A DNA stretch of 64,000 nucleotides from Heliocidaris erythrogramma (lineage: Eukaryota; Echinodermata; Echinoidea; Camarodonta; Echinometridae), in NCBI GenBank assembly GCA_025617745.1, contig CM046857.1, positions 24,955,761 to 25,019,760 on the forward strand, in the 5' to 3' direction. The notes beneath the pieces were generated by a model that saw only the letters and a program-made list of their open reading frames with translations, did no database searches and had not been told where the DNA came from. The first letter of the stretch is position 1; each line of letters begins with the position of its first letter. Below, in pieces: positions 30,042-62,033 of this stretch. Position numbers and translations under genes: made by a program.

Positions 30042-30991
30042 CTGAAAATTAAAAATAGATAATTAACATTAAATAAAATATGAACACACACAAATCTTAT
30101 AAATGTCACAAAAATCCCTTTTTTTTTTGCATTGTGTATGAATCGGATAAGATTTCTTCTGGGTAGAGCAAATACAAATGAATGAACAAACTGCTAAGTA
30201 ACATTGTCAGGGAAAATTTGTGATTGATCACAATCCTATACATATGGATATTTCTTACTAAACTATGTGTATGGAAGGCATACATCATACCAAATGCAAA
30301 AAAAAAAGATTTCTGTGTCATTTATAACCAGCAAAAATTAACATTTTCTGAGCAGACGTTGGTATTGGGTAGGAGAAACAATATTTTTGGTATACTTACA
30401 ATACAAATATATTAATTATTAACAAGTTTTGATCCAACAATTTCGCATAATTCATATAATTGAAATGTTCTTATTGTACATTTAGAGGTGCTTGCTCTGA
30501 TGGGCCATCGGTTTACCAGAAGTAGTAAACATTTTGATATCACATGAATTGCCACATTTGTCTCATTTAATATCGTCCTTTAATTTCAATCTTTTAATTC
30601 ATTTCGTTCTCATGATATTGACAAAAATCTAGCTGTTTTTCAGCCATCAAAATATCACAGTGAATCGAGCGTTGGACTATGTATTTTATAACGTACATCT
30701 AGCATAAAAAGTGCAAGTTCGTTTCCCACGGTACTCATAAAAATAAAGTGTAAACAGTTATAACAAAACAGACAAAATGGGAACAAGCACCTTTAATTCA
30801 ATTTCACTAACCACCTTAGCAAAAGAAGGAGAATAAAGTATGATTTAATAAAAATTCATCAAAATCCCATTGCGAAAGGTTGTTTTGAAAAGTTATGATT
30901 TTGCATTTTTATGGCTATTTTTATCACAAAACCTAGCAAAGAAACTAGACAGTGCAAACTGAGGATCTGATGTGAATTCAGTGAATCTTAC

Positions 30992-32076
30992 CGATGGCAT
31001 ATACAGTAGTCGTCCTCTTCTGCCTCATCACCACCCTCACTACCGCTATCACCGAAGCCTTCCATTTCTTGATCTTCTGCCTCATTGCTACCAATACTGC
31101 CTTCATCTTGCAAGCCTTGGGTTTGTTGAGCTACTAACTCGGCATCCACATCTGGGGTTTCAGTTTGTTGACCTTGTGCTGCAGCCTGTTTTTTTTCCCT
31201 CCTGGTTCTTTGGGCTTTGAGTACACCACAGAGCCGTCGCTGTTTCACAGATTCTAGGTGCTCAGTCCACATTTTTACATCTTCTACAGATAACAAATTT
31301 TCTCTGGCCAACTCAGTAATGCTCTCCTCTTTGAATTCGCCATTTGGTCGTTCTAATGTTTTGAAAGCATCACCGATAACATCTCGTGGAGGTTGAGACT
31401 TACTACCTGTCAAGTTGTCTGGATATTGCTTATAGTGTCCATTGCAGTGTTCACTGCATTTGCTGCATTCTCCACCCCATGGTTGACTTGGGTCAGGAAC
31501 TGGTGTAGGTACAAATGATAATGGGGGCCCACCATCAAACCAGAAAAGGTCTTCTCTTTCTTTTCTACAAACTGGATGGGGACATGCATCGTCATAACAG
31601 GGTAGGAGCTGAAATACATAATGAGGAAGACCCTTTTGCATGTGTCTCTCACGCAAGTCCCACACCATCTGAAAGTGGGCATACAAATCTGGTTGTTTTT
31701 GTTTCAGCTCTTGCTTGCTCTTTTTCGATCCTTTCAGGAACGTTTGAAGATGAGGCTTCCTTGCGTGGATTTCAGCTGCACAGTCATCCCTCGATCCTTC
31801 TACAAGCTTGATGTTGGACCTACCAGCAGGTGCACCATCGCAGCGATTGATGTAGACCTGTGTTGCCGTCCGCAAGTTTTTCTCTAGAGCAGCTTCATCT
31901 ATCCCTTGTTCGTTAAAATTAGAGCCATGAATTGTGGATGGGATGAACATATTTGCGTGAGCTCTTGTCAGGCAGCCATTCATAAGCTCTACTCGGTTGA
32001 GGTAGCTACCACCTGCATATCGTGCTGTCAACAGCGTGCAATGCTTAGCCATGTTAAGATGCCATTCCGTCCACAA
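30992..32076 (-). pseudogene. PHD transposase, Glu motif, Cys/His knuckle and acidic linker
   Basis: Begins TEWHLNMAKHC in the frame that continues the core, with SYLNRVELMNGCLTRAH carrying the likely third catalytic residue (Glu), about 46 residues after the second Asp. AHANMFIPSTIHGS follows. A Cys/His segment (CYDDACPHPVC and CSKCSEHCNGHY) looks like a zinc knuckle. The end is strongly acidic (GFGDSGSEGGDEAEEDD) and leads into DYCICH, the first two zinc ligands of the PHD finger. Donor CATCG|GTAAG at 30992/30991. Confidence 0.65.
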
Positions 32077-33800
32077 AACTGTACTTCAAGGTGTGTAGGT
32101 CCCTCATCGGATGCCCCATCCACGCGTATGCAGTCGATGGGCTTCTGCATGTCAGTCGCAAATTCGTCCATTTTGCTCATCATGTACATATCAGCCATGT
32201 GTTGCGATGGGTCCTTCGGGTAAAGCTGATGAGCCTTCACAACACCAAGCACCTTTTGAGCTGTATTTTCAGTTTCTACAATGAGATTCATGGAGGTCTG
32301 TAGCACTGACTTATATTTGTTTACATAATCTGTGCGCGTGGTAAGCTCTGGCTGTTCTTTCAATGAAACCGTTTTATATTGCTTGTGTGTGTATGTGGTG
32401 TCAAGGCGGAAACCTGCAGCATCATCTCTGTTAAGCACTAATTTATTACGCCCATCCTGTAATTGTAGTGCGTCCAGGTCCCTGTAGAAGGCGTTACTCC
32501 AATGACTGTCGGGGTTGAGTCTAATATTCCAGCCTTTACGGGCTCTCCTGGATGCTATCTGTGCAACACCTTTATATCGTTTGGCAGATATCCGCTTTCT
32601 ATTGTGGCAGGCACACAACTGAACTATCGTCCCATACGAGAACTTATCCTGGTAGTGATCCTGCAGATACTCCAATATCCTTTTGTATGTGACCCTTTTC
32701 CCTCGCTTCAAATTTCCATCAAACGTGAGAACACCTGTTCTTCTCCACGCTTCTGCTCCAACCATGTTATCGTGAACATAGTTCTCCATAACTTTCCCTA
32801 TGTCAGGATACTTTGTTACTATTCGTGACAAACGCTTTGGTAACTTCCGTTTCAACAGACATTCTTCTGACAACTTCTTAGCAGTAATTCTTTCAGTCCT
32901 TCTCAAGATTGTTTCTGATATCTTCTTCACTTTTTCCTTGGCCTTCTTACTGCTTGTATCCTTTATGGTCAAGTACTCCTCTGGGTCATCACTCTCCGAC
33001 TCAGTTTCTATCATTCTTGTTTGTTCTGATGATTCTGTCATATCCAGGTCACTGTCAGAGCTGTATGTACTTGGGTCTACTTCATCTGTCTCACTGTCAG
33101 TGTTTTGTCCTGATGAGGCCTTCAGTTCGGCTGCAGCTTGTGCAGATGCTAGATCCCACATCGACTCACGGATCTGTTTTTGCTCGACGATGGCATCTTC
33201 AACATTTTGTACAAGCATCTTTGGGTTATGAACTCCTAGCCTTTTCCTGCTTTGTTTTGCACTGAGGTTTTGTGATTTAATGGCTACATATTTTATAAGG
33301 CTTCTATCTTTTTCACTTGAAGCAAGGGAGCAGATCTCTTTCATCTCTTCTTTGGAGAAGTGTAGCTGTATTTTTGGTGGCACAAGGTTAAGGTGTTGAA
33401 TCATATTATTGTAGTCAAAGTTTGTCACATACTCGGCGACAAAAAGGCGTTTTTGTCCTGCACCAGCAGCAAACACAACAGCAGGTAGCTGCATGACTTT
33501 CCTCACAGCCTTATCACTTTTGTAAGAGGTATCAGTGGTCATATGATACAACTCCTTCAAACTCACAATCCCCCTTTGATCAACTGCTGTTGCCATTTTC
33601 ACAACTGCTGAGCAGCGGTGACATGGTTGAATGTGCTTTCTGTTACAAATCATTTTCTTTGTGTCTATGAAATTACTCATTGATATACCAGAAATTGCAG
33701 AATAGTAAATTCCATCCTTCTTGCTGAAATTGGTCGCTAATGCCTCTGTTTCAATCAATTTTCTTTCATTGACTGGAGCAATGTTGGGAGAGTCATGTCA
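32028..33800 (-). pseudogene. PHD transposase, core with first two Asp motifs
   Basis: Open for 576 codons from 33758 and, upstream of an in-frame TGA at 33798-33800, for about 65 more acidic residues. It contains a Cys/His cluster (CNRKHIQPCHRC), a long acidic stretch (SETDEVDPSTYSSDSD), a basic helical region (KRLSRIVTKYPDIGKVME) and the motifs NRDDAAGFRLD (Asp about residue 446) and CIRVDGASDEGP (Asp 547). Spacing of about 100 residues and the following aromatic/Trp segment fit a DDE transposase; the choice of catalytic residues is inference. Its last 16 codons are out of frame because of a one-base loss near 32076. Confidence 0.65.
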
Positions 33801-34066
33801 CTCTGATTCTTGCATTTCACTGTTGCTGTGTTCTGTAGCCTCACCTTCATCACAGCTACTGTCTGCTTCTCTCACTTCAGCCTGTTGGGTAAGGTTGGAA
33901 TAGATGTTCTCAAGCAAGTGTTCTGCCGTCTCTTGATCAGAATCAGCAACCATATCAACGCTGACTTGGTCAATATCTCTGCTCCTCTCTTCCTTACGGA
34001 TCCTCCACCTTCCTCATCATCTGTTGCAATGTCATCCATGCTCCTCTCATCAGAACCTTCAGCTAT

Positions 34067-35150
34067 TACACTAGTGCTAGCCTTTCAATTTCCCCACTCC
34101 TTTCCTCCATATTGACCTCTTCCTCATCTGCCTGGGAATCGCCCATCACTTTGACTTTTTTTGACGAAGGTCCATCACTTTCTCCTCCTTTGTTTTTCCT
34201 TCTTAATACCCTCCTCTTCTTCAAGGCATGCGTCTTATTTCCTATTTCTGCCTTCTCAAGTTTGAGCTTCCTTAGTTTCAGTTTGAGTTCTGAAATTTGT
34301 TGTTCAAAAGATGCCGCTTGCCCGAACTGGTTGGATGTGGCAGCTCTCTCTTTCCCTTTCTCGAGAAATTGTATTTGGGTCTCCATACTCTGGACTGTTT
34401 CGGTGATCTCTTCAAGACGGTCTTCTCTTACAGCTTCTTTTGAGTAATTGGATTCCTTCTTCTGTTTCTTACTTCCGAAGACTTTACTTCTGGTCTTTTT
34501 TCCATGGCCGTATTCATAACCACTGTTGTGCAGCTGTTCTCTTGCCTTCTCTAGGAGGAGTCCCTTGTTGTAAAGCAAAGTTGGGTTTGCTTTAGCGAGA
34601 CGGGAGGCAGCTTCATTTATCTTCTTCTGGTATTTGTTCAGATTCTTGCCCCTCTTGCCAAATATTTTTGCTCTATCTTCCATTTCTTCATCGGTTACAT
34701 CACTCACAGATGGAGTTTGACTGGGCCGTTCATGACTGATTGATAGCTTTCCACCTGTGAACTTAAGGGTTGCTTGACTTCTCCTAGGAAGATTATCTTC
34801 AAAAGATGTACTGGCTCTCGCTGCATCACCTCCTGGCGAGGAGGATGTTCCCTCACTGCTTGTCATAGAAGGCACTTCGCAATGTACTGCAGAAACTGAT
34901 GCTTGTTGAGCCGGTGATACAAACAGCAATCTAATCTTATCATTTTCAACTGGTACATGCTCATCATAATCGACGTAATCCTCAAACCCTTTATCGTAAA
35001 CTAAGGCACGCTGAAGTTGCAGGGCTGCAATTTGGGGCATGTCTTTACAGCTTCCAGGTGGCATTCGTCAATTGTTCGGGCCCGAACAGCCTTTTTGGCC
35101 ATTTCTTTGCCATCAACCTCGATGATAGCTAAGATGCGAGGAGCAGCCAT
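34067..35150 (-). pseudogene. PHD transposase, N-terminal segment
   Basis: A start at 35150 gives MAAPRILAIIEVDGKEMA and about 30 further residues, then the frame breaks between 35064 and 35001. The next frame continues as LVYDKGFEDYVDYDEHVP and runs 332 codons to 34066. It contains a Ser-rich acidic region (SSEGTSSSPGG), KIFGKRGKNLNKYQKKINE, and a coiled coil from about residue 220 (LEEITETVQSMETQIQFLE) followed by a basic KKRRVLRRKNK patch that could be a nuclear signal. A splice acceptor-like CTGTACAG sits directly before the start, so an upstream 5' exon is possible. Confidence 0.6.
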
Positions 35151-40592: not shown

Positions 40593-40830
40593 CTAGCAAA
40601 ATGGAATGATAAATTGGCAACAATCAATAACAAAATATAATGGGCTATATCATAAAACAGGAAACACTCCATTGCGTGCATGTAGACTATTTTTTTTTTG
40701 GGGGGGGGGGGGGGGGGGAGAGAAGACACTAGATGCATTCTATAAAATTATATGCTAGATCTACCGTGCAGAATGATGTGTGTGTGTGTGTAATTGGGTT
40801 TTTACAGACGTTTATCAATCAGATATGATT

Positions 40831-40957
40831 ATTTATTTCTGGGACCGACCTTTAACGTCACCATCCGAAAGACGTGACTCAGTCTTGAACCTGGGTCCGC
40901 TGAATCAGTTTATAACTTCCACTGGTAGCTGGATTACAGGCGCACGCCACAACGCCC
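40831..40957 (-). repeat. SINE-like element with 7SL RNA-like head
   Basis: Read on the minus strand from 40957 it begins GGGCGTTGTGGCGTGCGCC, then TGTAATCCAGCTACC. This follows the 5' domain of 7SL (SRP) RNA and so also resembles Alu, over about 36 bases. GGTTCAAGACTGAGT 30 bases on resembles a B box. Then comes TTTCGGATGGTGACGTTAAA, a block I take to be a SINE body, and a short AGAAATAAAT tail. It is not a full 7SL gene (about 300 nt expected) and lacks a second Alu monomer. Confidence 0.5.
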
Positions 40958-41721
40958 AGTTGAATCATTGAATGTGGTTTCTTATTTCAAGATGTAGTGA
41001 ATTAATGTGCAGAGTACATATACTCTGAGCCTTGTAACAAAAACTCATTAAATTCAACAAACATTCTTTAAAAAGTTTAAATCTTAAAATCAAATCAGGT
41101 TTTGTTGGCTCTGTGTTTGTTCCAATTCAACCTCTCAATTTTTCACTTCTTTCATTCAAGTTCAACTTGTCAGTTTATCACTACTTAATTTTTTCAAGAA
41201 TCACGTTCAATTTCTCAACTTTTCACTTCACTCAGTCTGACTCAGCTCAGCTCAGCCTCAGGTCTCAGTCAGAGAATAGGATAAATTGCATTTGGTTTGT
41301 CAGCCCATGTCATGACCAGTTTACTTTTCTTTATTTTTTAACTGATAGGCTCTACTTAAAATACTGCATAAGCCATTCAGAAGACATTTTAGGATGAGAA
41401 CTAAATTAGCTTCAAAATACAAAGTGCGTAGACCATAGTCATTTTGGCCTCCCCAAAGTCAAAGAACGGAGGCAAGGTACGGTCACTGGCCGGTCCCGGC
41501 AGGCGAGCCGGGGAGTCGCGAAAGCACCAAGCCGCATACACCGACAAATCGTTCATTGTTCTGCAGCAGTGCAGGATCAAAATTCCGACTCATACCACAC
41601 ATTCTGATCATGAATCACGTAAAATGGGCAAATTAAATAGTAAAAATCATGAAATATCATTTATATTCAAAATATCACATTCTCACTTAAAATTAACGCA
41701 AATATAAGGCTTATTCCTCAC

Positions 41722-60189: not shown

Positions 60190-61580
60190 GAAAAACACTT
60201 GCAGTTATCCCTTGTACTATTGGAGTGTGTCTTACGTGTAGACCTTGATGGGATATTCAATTTGAGAGACTGACTGCCACCATGGCCTACCTCCTGAAGA
60301 GGTTCAACGACTTCCTTGGGATATCTGACCCTGAATACGTCAGAGCGCCACCGCTTGACGGAGAGATCATCTTCTGTAAGAACAATGTATGCGTGCATCC
60401 ACCCTCCGTGCTCTCGACCAGCGTGGAGCACCATCCTGGGTACCTGACGATCCGTGCCCAGAGGGTTTCTGAAAGACAGACGTCCCTTGTGCTCACGTGG
60501 ATCCCAAACACATCCTTGAACCAGAGGAAACGCTCCAGCTGTAGCTCCAGCAGTCCAGCCAGAGTGACCTATGTGGATATCCGCAAGCATATTGCGATGA
60601 GGAATGAAGCCCACATGGACAATGTCAGTGGCGATAGCCTGAGTATTTTGTCCAAGGAGGAAGATGCAGGAGGAGAGAATGCCTGTATGGAAAAGCCAAA
60701 GGAGTTGGGTAGGAATGAAAGTCCTCAAGGGTCAATTCAGAGCTTCCAGGACTCTGGTATCGGGGAAGGGGAACGACCCAAAGTGAGCAAAGATGGCGGT
60801 GTTGATGGGGCAACAGGGAGTGAACCATGCAATAGAAATGAGATGGACAACAAGACTGCTGAAGGAAACCACAAGGAGGAAGTGTCTTCGGAAAGTGACG
60901 AGGTGTCAACAGAACAAAGGCTGGCTGCTCTTCTGAACAGTCCAGGGGGTAGCCAGAGCCCAGTGGGTCGACCCATCAACTTGGAACTCCAAACAAAAAT
61001 GAAGGTTCATCCACCCAAGGATGATGAAGACAAGGATAGTGTCAGCAGTTCCGATTCAGATGACTCTGAGATCTTTAACAACATCCTTGAACGCCTCTCA
61101 AAAGATGTCCTTCCGAGGCAAGCATCCCGCCGTTCCAGCTCCACGACTCCGACCACCTCCAACCAGGACCCGTCCTCCTTGCCTTCCACCCCGAGCCCTG
61201 ATGAGAGCTTTGACCCCTTCGTCCCCCTCTACAGCCTCCACAGTAGTTCCACCTGCAGTCCAGAGATTCACCCTTCCCCAATTGCCACCCACAACCTCAC
61301 CTTCCCTGAGAACTATGTATGCTACCGCAGTAAGGTTGTCTGTCCCGGTTCTCCTGCCAGCGCTCCAGCCAGGGACCAAGTCTGTGGTGTCTTCTCTGTC
61401 GACCTTTGCCAGATGAGGTCCCTGAGGATCTTCTTTGCAGATGAAGAGTGTACCGGTGGTCAGATGGTCATTGCTAGTCGAGAGAGTCAGTACAAGGTCT
61501 TGCACTTCCACCATGGTGGTCTGGATAAAATGACAGAAGTCTTTGATCATTGGAAGAACTGCATCAAACTTCACAACCAG
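60190..61580 (+). CDS. TBC1D16: TBC1D16, first coding exon (RabGAP N-terminal half)
   Basis: The exon opens after acceptor TTGTTCATTTCTACAG (60189), has 92 bases of leader, starts at ATG 60282 and ends at donor AACCAG|GTGAGT (61580), phase 0, giving 433 residues. PLDGEIIFCKNNVCVHPP (about residues 24-41) and EHHPGYL match vertebrate TBC1D16. So do VCGVFSVDL, RSLRIFFADEECT and ASRESQYKVLHFHHGGLDK (about 365-425). Between them lies a Ser/Pro/Glu-rich linker (SVSSSDSDDSEIF; SSTTPTTSNQD). The catalytic TBC domain is outside the window. In vertebrates the protein is a GTPase-activating protein for Rab4A and acts in receptor recycling. Reading through the donor would add 32 repeat-derived residues. 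Confidence 0.92.
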
Positions 61581-62033
61581 GTGAGTGACAAAATCTGCAT
61601 GTGGTACAAAGGATTCGGAGGCCATACAGTGATGGCAGGTGTACATGTATACATGTACATACATAGAAATACAACATAAAACATGTGTATTTAATGCACA
61701 CATCTCTCACTGCTTAAAAACTCTGCTGCCATTTTGAATTGTTGTTTTGTTGCTATTGATGACAAAAACAGAAGAAAAAAAAAAGAAAGAAAAAATCTTA
61801 CATGAAACAAAATGATCATCGTCTAATCTGTGATAGATTTTAAAAATTTGTTATGATACATTTGCCAACTGTTGATAATTTCAAGAGAACTCTGAATTTT
61901 TTTTGGGGGGTCAAATTCAAGATACAGCAGTGGTACATTATAAAAACTGCTTGATAACATTTTCTACAATTCAAATTGTATTTACAGACATTGCAGAGTC
62001 CTAGAAATGAAATTTTTGACTAATATTGCAATA

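Follow-up and report, generated by a model that had tools for sequence, protein, structure and literature searches.

A SINE with a 7SL head in the window

The window, the whole 64-kb stretch of DNA that was analysed, contains one copy of a SINE that we call family 1: a 183-bp minus-strand element, with head and body both read there and four mismatches to the family consensus (Table 1); no second copy was found in the 64 kb. An earlier note on this DNA had put a SINE-like element with a 7SL-like head at 40831..40957. The place was correct, the limits were not: the element extends from 40960 down to about 40778. The minus-strand head and, after a B-box-like word, the CGGATGGTGACGTTAAA body are where that note had described them, but in place of its short A/T tail the body is followed by some 50 conserved nt with (CA)n at their end. 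Family 1 has the 3' end sequence GACGTAAATAATCATATCTGATTGATACACGTCTGTAAAAACCC(CA)n; the outer arms of the tail, GACGT/ACGTC, are intact in the consensus and damaged in the window copy. The B box GGTTCAAGACT agrees with the consensus of the tRNA type.

Table 1. Coordinates of the family-1 SINE copy and its parts in the window
Feature	Position	Strand	Basis
Whole SINE copy (family 1), 183 bp	40778..40960	-	consensus match; copies genome-wide
7SL-identical head, the same at 36/36 nt as positions 1-36 of the genome's own C16 7SL genes	40925..40960	-	
End of the 7SL 5' domain: T replaced by CAG, then TGGAAGT, equal to 7SL nt 38-44	40915..40924	-	alignment
A box GGCGTTGTGG, 7SL type	40947..40956	-	position equivalent to that of the 7SL A box in the accessible part of PMC7245038
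UGU motif; in SRP RNA, the U-turn bound by SRP9/14	40936..40938	-	sequence; role from the accessible part of PMC8137916
Part shared with the older SINE, beginning directly 3' of the 7SL domain	40791..40914	-	consensus comparison, 217 against a shuffle maximum of 41 (2000 shuffles)
B box GGTTCAAGACT (family consensus GGTTCGAGACT), older-SINE origin	40881..40891	-	sequence
Conserved body GTCACGTCTTTCGGATGGTGACGTTAAAGGTCGGTCCC	40841..40878	-	common to family 2 and the older SINE
Tail with AATCA-TATC-TGATT stem-loop	40806..40840	-	in both families; older SINE with one change
(CA)n 3' end	40778..40790	-	sequence

Other features of the window can be listed briefly. At 40690-40718, 60 bp from the 3' end of the SINE, a run of 10 T gives way to one of 19 G. 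A plus-strand ORF (60282-61679) matches a Rab-binding domain (PF12068, E 8e-8) of the kind found in TBC1D15/16-type proteins. On the minus strand, three long consecutive ORFs at 30988-35064, partly within the GC-richest 4 kb of the window, are possibly a transposon or a gene: one has a sub-cut-off Pfam match (NCD2), the others none at E 0.001. Across the entire window, Rfam reported no family at its cut-off.

The head matches the genome's own 7SL RNA

The genome that was searched (G000) comprises 1.064 Gb in 26 contigs and carries at least 18 7SL genes above the cut-off, as judged from the 26 of 11405 candidates that were scored. Twelve of these genes lie on contig C16; nine of the 12 are identical and start with ACTGGGCGTTGTGGCGTGCGCCTGTAATCCAGCTACTTGGAAGT. 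The SINE starts with ACTGGGCGTTGTGGCGTGCGCCTGTAATCCAGCTACCAGTGGAAGT and equals the C16 genes at 36 of 36 positions, after which it has CAG for T and then seven more identical bases; the 7SL genes on C4 and C1 have differences inside the first 36 nt. Alignment to a 7SL gene of the same species, proposed earlier as a check, thus gives identity over 36 nt. The 7SL genes are clustered: C16:41246598-41716167 holds the 12 C16 genes, mostly 2.0-2.2 kb apart, and C4:2993710-3679840 holds five genes that differ from those of C16 and have other upstream sequences.

The likeness extends to structure models. In a 401-base search, the metazoan SRP RNA model (Rfam RF00017) matched 40903-40960 on the minus strand with E = 2.5e-7 and 34 bits, a score below the curated cut-off of 70; the further matches were weak (a microRNA model, E 0.055; a snoRNA, 1.8). 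The match covers the 5' domain of the Alu part, whose closing AGT (in 40915..40924) is paired by cmscan with the three bases that open the head; two hairpins lie between. A mutated family-1 copy (L087) gave no RF00017 match at E up to 5. Positions 1-46 of the family-1 consensus score 79 against the genome's own 7SL, a value reached by 0 of 2000 shuffles (the maxima in two sets of 2000 were 31 and 29); a chance likeness between head and 7SL is therefore excluded. Folding predictions do not find the head more stable than shuffled sequences, and the same holds for the real 7SL head. A better match to a tRNA or 5S head would have told against the 7SL assignment, and scans of all Rfam families (E up to 10 or 5) returned neither for the head.

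Where does the likeness begin and end? The flanks of 17 of the 18 7SL genes were read, with 14 starts at ACTGGG, one at ATTGGG, one at GCTGGG and one broken; the C16 genes have a TATA-like word upstream, and T runs come after 7SL genes. The SINE starts at the same base (ACTGGG) and has none of the 7SL upstream sequence, which suggests that the head was derived from the RNA. At the other end, 7SL beyond about nt 44 is missing, and this internal deletion separates the element from 7SL retrocopies. No 7SL 3' part stands out: cmscan puts only UU or a low-confidence stretch there, and the consensus comparison assigns the apparent 3'-part region of family 1 to the older SINE described below.

Mammalian contamination, which the earlier note had named as a threat to its claim, is excluded, because the copies listed occur on many contigs and the 7SL with which the head is identical is that of this very genome. 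The mitochondrial contig (C24) places the genome outside vertebrates, as that note had supposed, by its code and its gene order. COX1 is stop-free with ATA read as I and AAA as N (table 9), and the order is nad2, 16S, cox1, Arg, nad4L, cox2, atp6, cox3, Ser (minus), nad3, nad4, His, nad5, nad6 (minus), cob, Glu; four tRNAs and COX1 were called by a tool, and the remaining genes, like the position of 16S, were read from frames and gaps. This code and order are those of echinoderms, of the sea urchin or sea cucumber type.

A young family dispersed in thousands of copies

Patterns drawn from three parts of the element each match the genome thousands of times, on both strands and with zero matches in the controls. 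The head pattern (26 nt, at most two mismatches) has 2167 + 2232 = 4399 matches, a count that includes the matching 7SL genes, against 0 for the reversed control; the body pattern (40 nt, at most three mismatches) has 2405 + 2448 = 4853, and the tail pattern (41 nt, at most three mismatches) 2308 + 2336 = 4644. Among the matches listed, copies are on many contigs; viral contigs have zero exact matches to head or body. The junction of head and body is identical across the dispersed family-1 copies that were read, so the SINE-like nature of the element and the existence of genomic copies with its junction are both borne out. Two subfamilies can be told apart, GCTACCAG...GGTCCCAG and GCTAACAG...GGTCCCCAG.

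On contig C1, 21 bodies at 20 places (two of these, L072 and L073, have common flanks) were chosen for the lack of a listed exact head nearby: 18 have a 7SL head that is whole, mutated or partial, and three (L065, the first copy of L067, and L070) begin inside the post-head part. L027 is a head whose 3' part is lost. A candidate bare head, L034, was rejected as such: it is a SINE interrupted, at about 1530-1700, by a palindromic insert with ends GGGAGACACGCCC / GGGCGTGTCTCC, likely a small DNA transposon. Also rejected was GATTCA before the element as a general feature; it is absent from C1 copies in general, and was seen at several of the first loci because the query contained some of those bases.

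Divergence was measured on 29 of the 30 head-selected C1 copies, L034 being omitted for its nested insert. Over positions 37-165, indels aside, the mismatch to the consensus is 1.45% (53/3665 bases), and eight of the 29 copies have no mismatch. The sampled copies are young; the true mean divergence is probably higher, since the sample comes from one chromosome, was chosen by exact heads and includes some tandem or duplicated copies.

Some copies stand in head-to-tail arrays joined by (CA)n (e.g., C1:7720599-7721348 and C1:35967849-35969620), with units mostly of about 174-203 bp. Counted by eye, 17 of the 100 exact heads that were listed have a same-strand neighbour no more than 450 bp away. 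The SINE-derived satellites of reptiles are comparable, going by the accessible part of their description (PMC10702118).

Target-site duplications, suggested in advance as a sign of insertion, are present in a minority of copies. From 74 copies entered, 13 without a clear head or tail or with too little flank, nine tandem copies and seven duplicated insertions (all five in one larger repeat among them) were removed, leaving 45. Exact duplications of at least 10 nt within 3 nt of the 5' end flank five of the 45 (L003, L055, L056, L078, L099); they are 12-15 nt long, and re-paired flanks give an expectation of 0.0. With slack of up to 14 nt the count rises to seven of 45 (expected, 0.04), the added duplications of L052 and L091 consisting of short repeats. 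By the stricter measure the remaining 40, the window copy included, have no target duplication of at least 10 nt. Duplications of 7-17 nt, separated from the 5' end by about 4-11 extra or altered bases, were also seen at L050, L067 and L091.

The rest of the element comes from a probably older SINE

If the first 44 or so bases are 7SL, what is the remainder? A search with a core variant, CTTTCGGATGGGACGTTAAA, found 31 places, against two in the control, and led via three loci (L093-L095) to another SINE: these loci have B box, body and tail in common with family 1, and their head differs. With L093 as the query, 40 matches were listed from 1219 first-look candidates, six clustered on C2 and 34 dispersed, with partial cover of the query. 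The consensus built from 16 of the 34 dispersed matches reads AGGGATCAGGAGTTGGTCTAGCGGTAACGTCTACGGTCAGCTCTCTGTATTCGCC then TACAAACTGACTCTGATCGGACCCAGGTTCGAATCTCAGTCACGTCTTTCGG..., with a body and tail that are nearly those of family 1. Its words TGGTCTAGCGG and GGTTCGAATCT fit the tRNA-type A and B boxes; for the head, a tRNA was called by ARAGORN in 0 of 16 copies and by Rfam in none of five. The copies differ from the consensus by a mean of 4.8%, although they were chosen as best matches, and this higher divergence suggests that the SINE predates family 1. A pattern from its head (28 nt, at most three mismatches) matches the genome 157 + 168 = 325 times, with 0 in the control. At the L093 locus, positions 2126-2214 form a near-perfect 89-bp palindrome, which is probably a MITE rather than a microRNA; several microRNA models match it, on both strands, below their cut-offs.

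Comparison of the consensus sequences locates the boundary between the two sources. Positions 1-46 of family 1, which match 7SL so closely, score 13 against the head of the older SINE, a value reached by 1314 of 2000 shuffles. From position 47 to the end, family 1 scores 217 against the older SINE (0 of 2000 shuffles), and positions 47-100 score 15 against the next stretch of 7SL (781 of 2000). An eye-read variant of the older-SINE tail gave 225 instead of 217 in the same comparison, with the same outcome. The join of the 7SL and older-SINE parts is thus at nt 46/47 of family 1, and the sampled dispersed family is a relative of the SINE parent. The sequence 3' of nt 46 derives from the older SINE, and with it the B box, which is therefore a different one from the B box of 7SL. 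Neither this second parent nor the second family described next had been noticed in the earlier note.

A second 7SL-headed family

Two loci (L086, L090) led to a second family, in which CTGTAAACCAAGCTGACGGGGCAGTTACAAATTGACTTGGGGTGCGGGTTCGAGCCCCG separates the head from the body and the end is (ATTC)n. Of its 41 listed matches (311 candidates, 40 scored), 40 are long, at 97-100%. Its 7SL match is unbroken for nt 1-27, with RF00017 scores of 24 to 26 bits, and a 5' domain of the RF00017 type with UGU is present in both families. One copy (L099) has a 15-nt target duplication. Some family-2 copies ride on other duplications: of the 11 copies read, five (L090, L098, L101, L102, L105) occupy one and the same site in a larger repeat, and common flanks surround L096 and L097.

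Origin, propagation and competing explanations

These data point to a young, dispersed echinoderm SINE that is a chimera: nt 1 to about 44 are those of the genome's own 7SL RNA, and an older SINE contributed B box, body and tail. We give this reading a probability of roughly 0.88. Its birth probably proceeded as follows. The 7SL transcript supplied nt 1 to about 44, with the 5' domain, the A box and the UGU, and this 5' part was joined onto what the older SINE contributed. The joining probably took place by template switching during reverse transcription, as is suggested by a head that starts at 7SL +1 and brings no upstream 7SL promoter with it.

How would such an element be expressed and copied? 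Both promoter elements are present as words, a 7SL-derived A box and a B box of tRNA type that differs from that of 7SL, and RNA polymerase III may transcribe the SINE from this mixed promoter; the consensus lacks TTTT, so transcripts would terminate in the flanking DNA. A partner LINE that recognizes the conserved 3' tail would then copy the SINE. No LINE with this tail was found in the 336,550 bases retrieved (overlaps included), in which 132 of 132 tail matches adjoin a SINE body, and the tail count in the genome is not above the body count. Finally, the 5' domain may bind SRP9/14; as has been proposed for Alu, this would put the RNA on ribosomes engaged in making the LINE protein. Two domains make up Alu RNA, a 5' one that reaches to helix H4 and a 3' one, H5; SRP9/14 binds at the UGU U-turn, and a minimal Alu element retains this binding (accessible part of PMC8137916). 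The SINE retains the 5' domain with UGU and is without the 3' domain. By sequence, what it has retained fits SRP9/14 docking and falls short of proving it.

The main rival accepts the chimera and denies the docking: the 7SL 5' domain would be merely one half of a pol III promoter, with no SRP9/14 role. We rate this a strong contender, at a little under even odds. An A box in the head with a B box from the older SINE looks like the exchange of one A-box half for another, and the absence of the 3' Alu domain points the same way; however, the kept part stops where the 5' domain does, and both families have the UGU, which exceeds what an A box would need.

Might 7SL have been recruited twice, once for each family? 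Linker, B-box region and 3' end are not alike in the two, and the unbroken 7SL match of family 2 is limited to nt 1-27. Two independent events nevertheless seem unlikely to us: the AGTTAYAAAYTGA linker, the body and most of the tail are common to both families, and a single event followed by divergence, or by an exchange of the B-box region, is the simpler account.

Much less probable still is that the copies are 7SL retropseudogenes or segmental duplicates and form no SINE family. Tandem arrays do account for 17 of the 100 listed exact heads, and some family-2 copies are inside a larger repeat, but the dispersed copies that were read have the same chimeric junction, end in (CA)n or (ATTC)n, lie in different flanking DNA and, in some cases, carry target duplications. 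The least credible proposal, a tRNA-derived head that resembles 7SL through a common A box, can appeal to the B box and to the tRNA-type promoter words in the older SINE, and is refuted by 36 consecutive bases, starting at +1 and reaching through the second helix, that are identical to the genome's own 7SL, in a head that matches no tRNA in the scans above and is unrelated to that of the older SINE.

Relation to known 7SL SINEs

7SL RNA is present in animals generally, and gave rise to the human Alu elements. SINEs derived from it are named for primates, rodents and hagfishes only (Kojima, 2024), the hagfish SINE1-1_EBu being the first evident SINE1 outside Euarchontoglires (Kojima, 2020; accessible part of PMC7245038). 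No invertebrate 7SL SINE was among the titles listed in searches of the open literature, though a Repbase entry may exist; the accessible parts of three further papers (PMC6887750, PMC9191728, PMC3899998) contain nothing contrary.

The closest parallel is SINE1-1_EBu itself (Eptatretus burgeri), for which the accessible part of PMC7245038 describes a 7SL head, a chimera with an older tRNA-type SINE and a 3' microsatellite, all as here, together with 2363 full-length copies, a birth independent of Alu and an RTE-type partner. Its head, in the same source, combines 96 nt of the 7SL 5' part with a 3' part, i.e., the whole Alu domain with the 7SL B box; by contrast, the echinoderm SINE has only about 44 nt of 7SL and takes its B box from the older SINE. 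Alu and B1 of Euarchontoglires are likewise short and dispersed, with a 7SL head and an SRP9/14-type 5' domain (accessible parts of PMC7245038 and PMC8137916). Alu/B1 relatives have 7SL 1-63, 76-83 and 267-299 in common and use L1 and a poly-A tail (PMC7245038, same part), whereas the echinoderm SINE lacks the 7SL 3' part as well as a poly-A tail. Tu-type SINEs of tree shrews and GarnAlu of the bushbaby are also fusions of 7SL-derived and tRNA-derived SINEs, although these, with all SINE1 of Euarchontoglires, are held to descend from one common ancestor (again in that part of PMC7245038). Sea urchin SINE2 elements (SURF1/SINE2-4c_SP, SINE2-3_SP, SINE2-8_SP) are listed, in the accessible part of Ohshima (2013; PMC3747384), with no heads but tRNA ones and with partners of the CR1 or L2 kind; the older SINE resembles them by its tRNA-type promoter words.

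To which class does the new element belong? As a SINE with a 7SL-derived head it is, by that definition, a SINE1, one with only the 5' of the two Alu-domain halves that are a common feature of Alu, B1 and the hagfish family (accessible part of PMC7245038). The tRNA-derived head that characterizes SINE2 is absent from family 1.

Biological implications

It is quite possible, at somewhat less than even odds, that this is a third independent birth of a 7SL SINE, outside vertebrates and with the 5' domain alone, and that the swap of heads made the family far more successful. The head of the new family has 4399 matches (26 nt, two mismatches) and the old head 325 (28 nt, three mismatches), a gap that the greater age of the old family may explain in part. 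If the idea is true, SRP9/14 docking, and not just the promoter, would be the reason why 7SL keeps being recruited.

So far an oddity of hagfish and some mammals, the birth of a 7SL SINE can, as this echinoderm case indicates, occur far from vertebrates. It has long been thought that SRP9/14 brings SINE RNA to the ribosome. Promoter and SRP9/14 binding, joined in Alu, are separated here, because nothing but the 5' domain was kept and the immediate SINE parent has a close relative surviving in the same genome; this separation would make the long-standing idea directly testable, in embryos that are easily injected.
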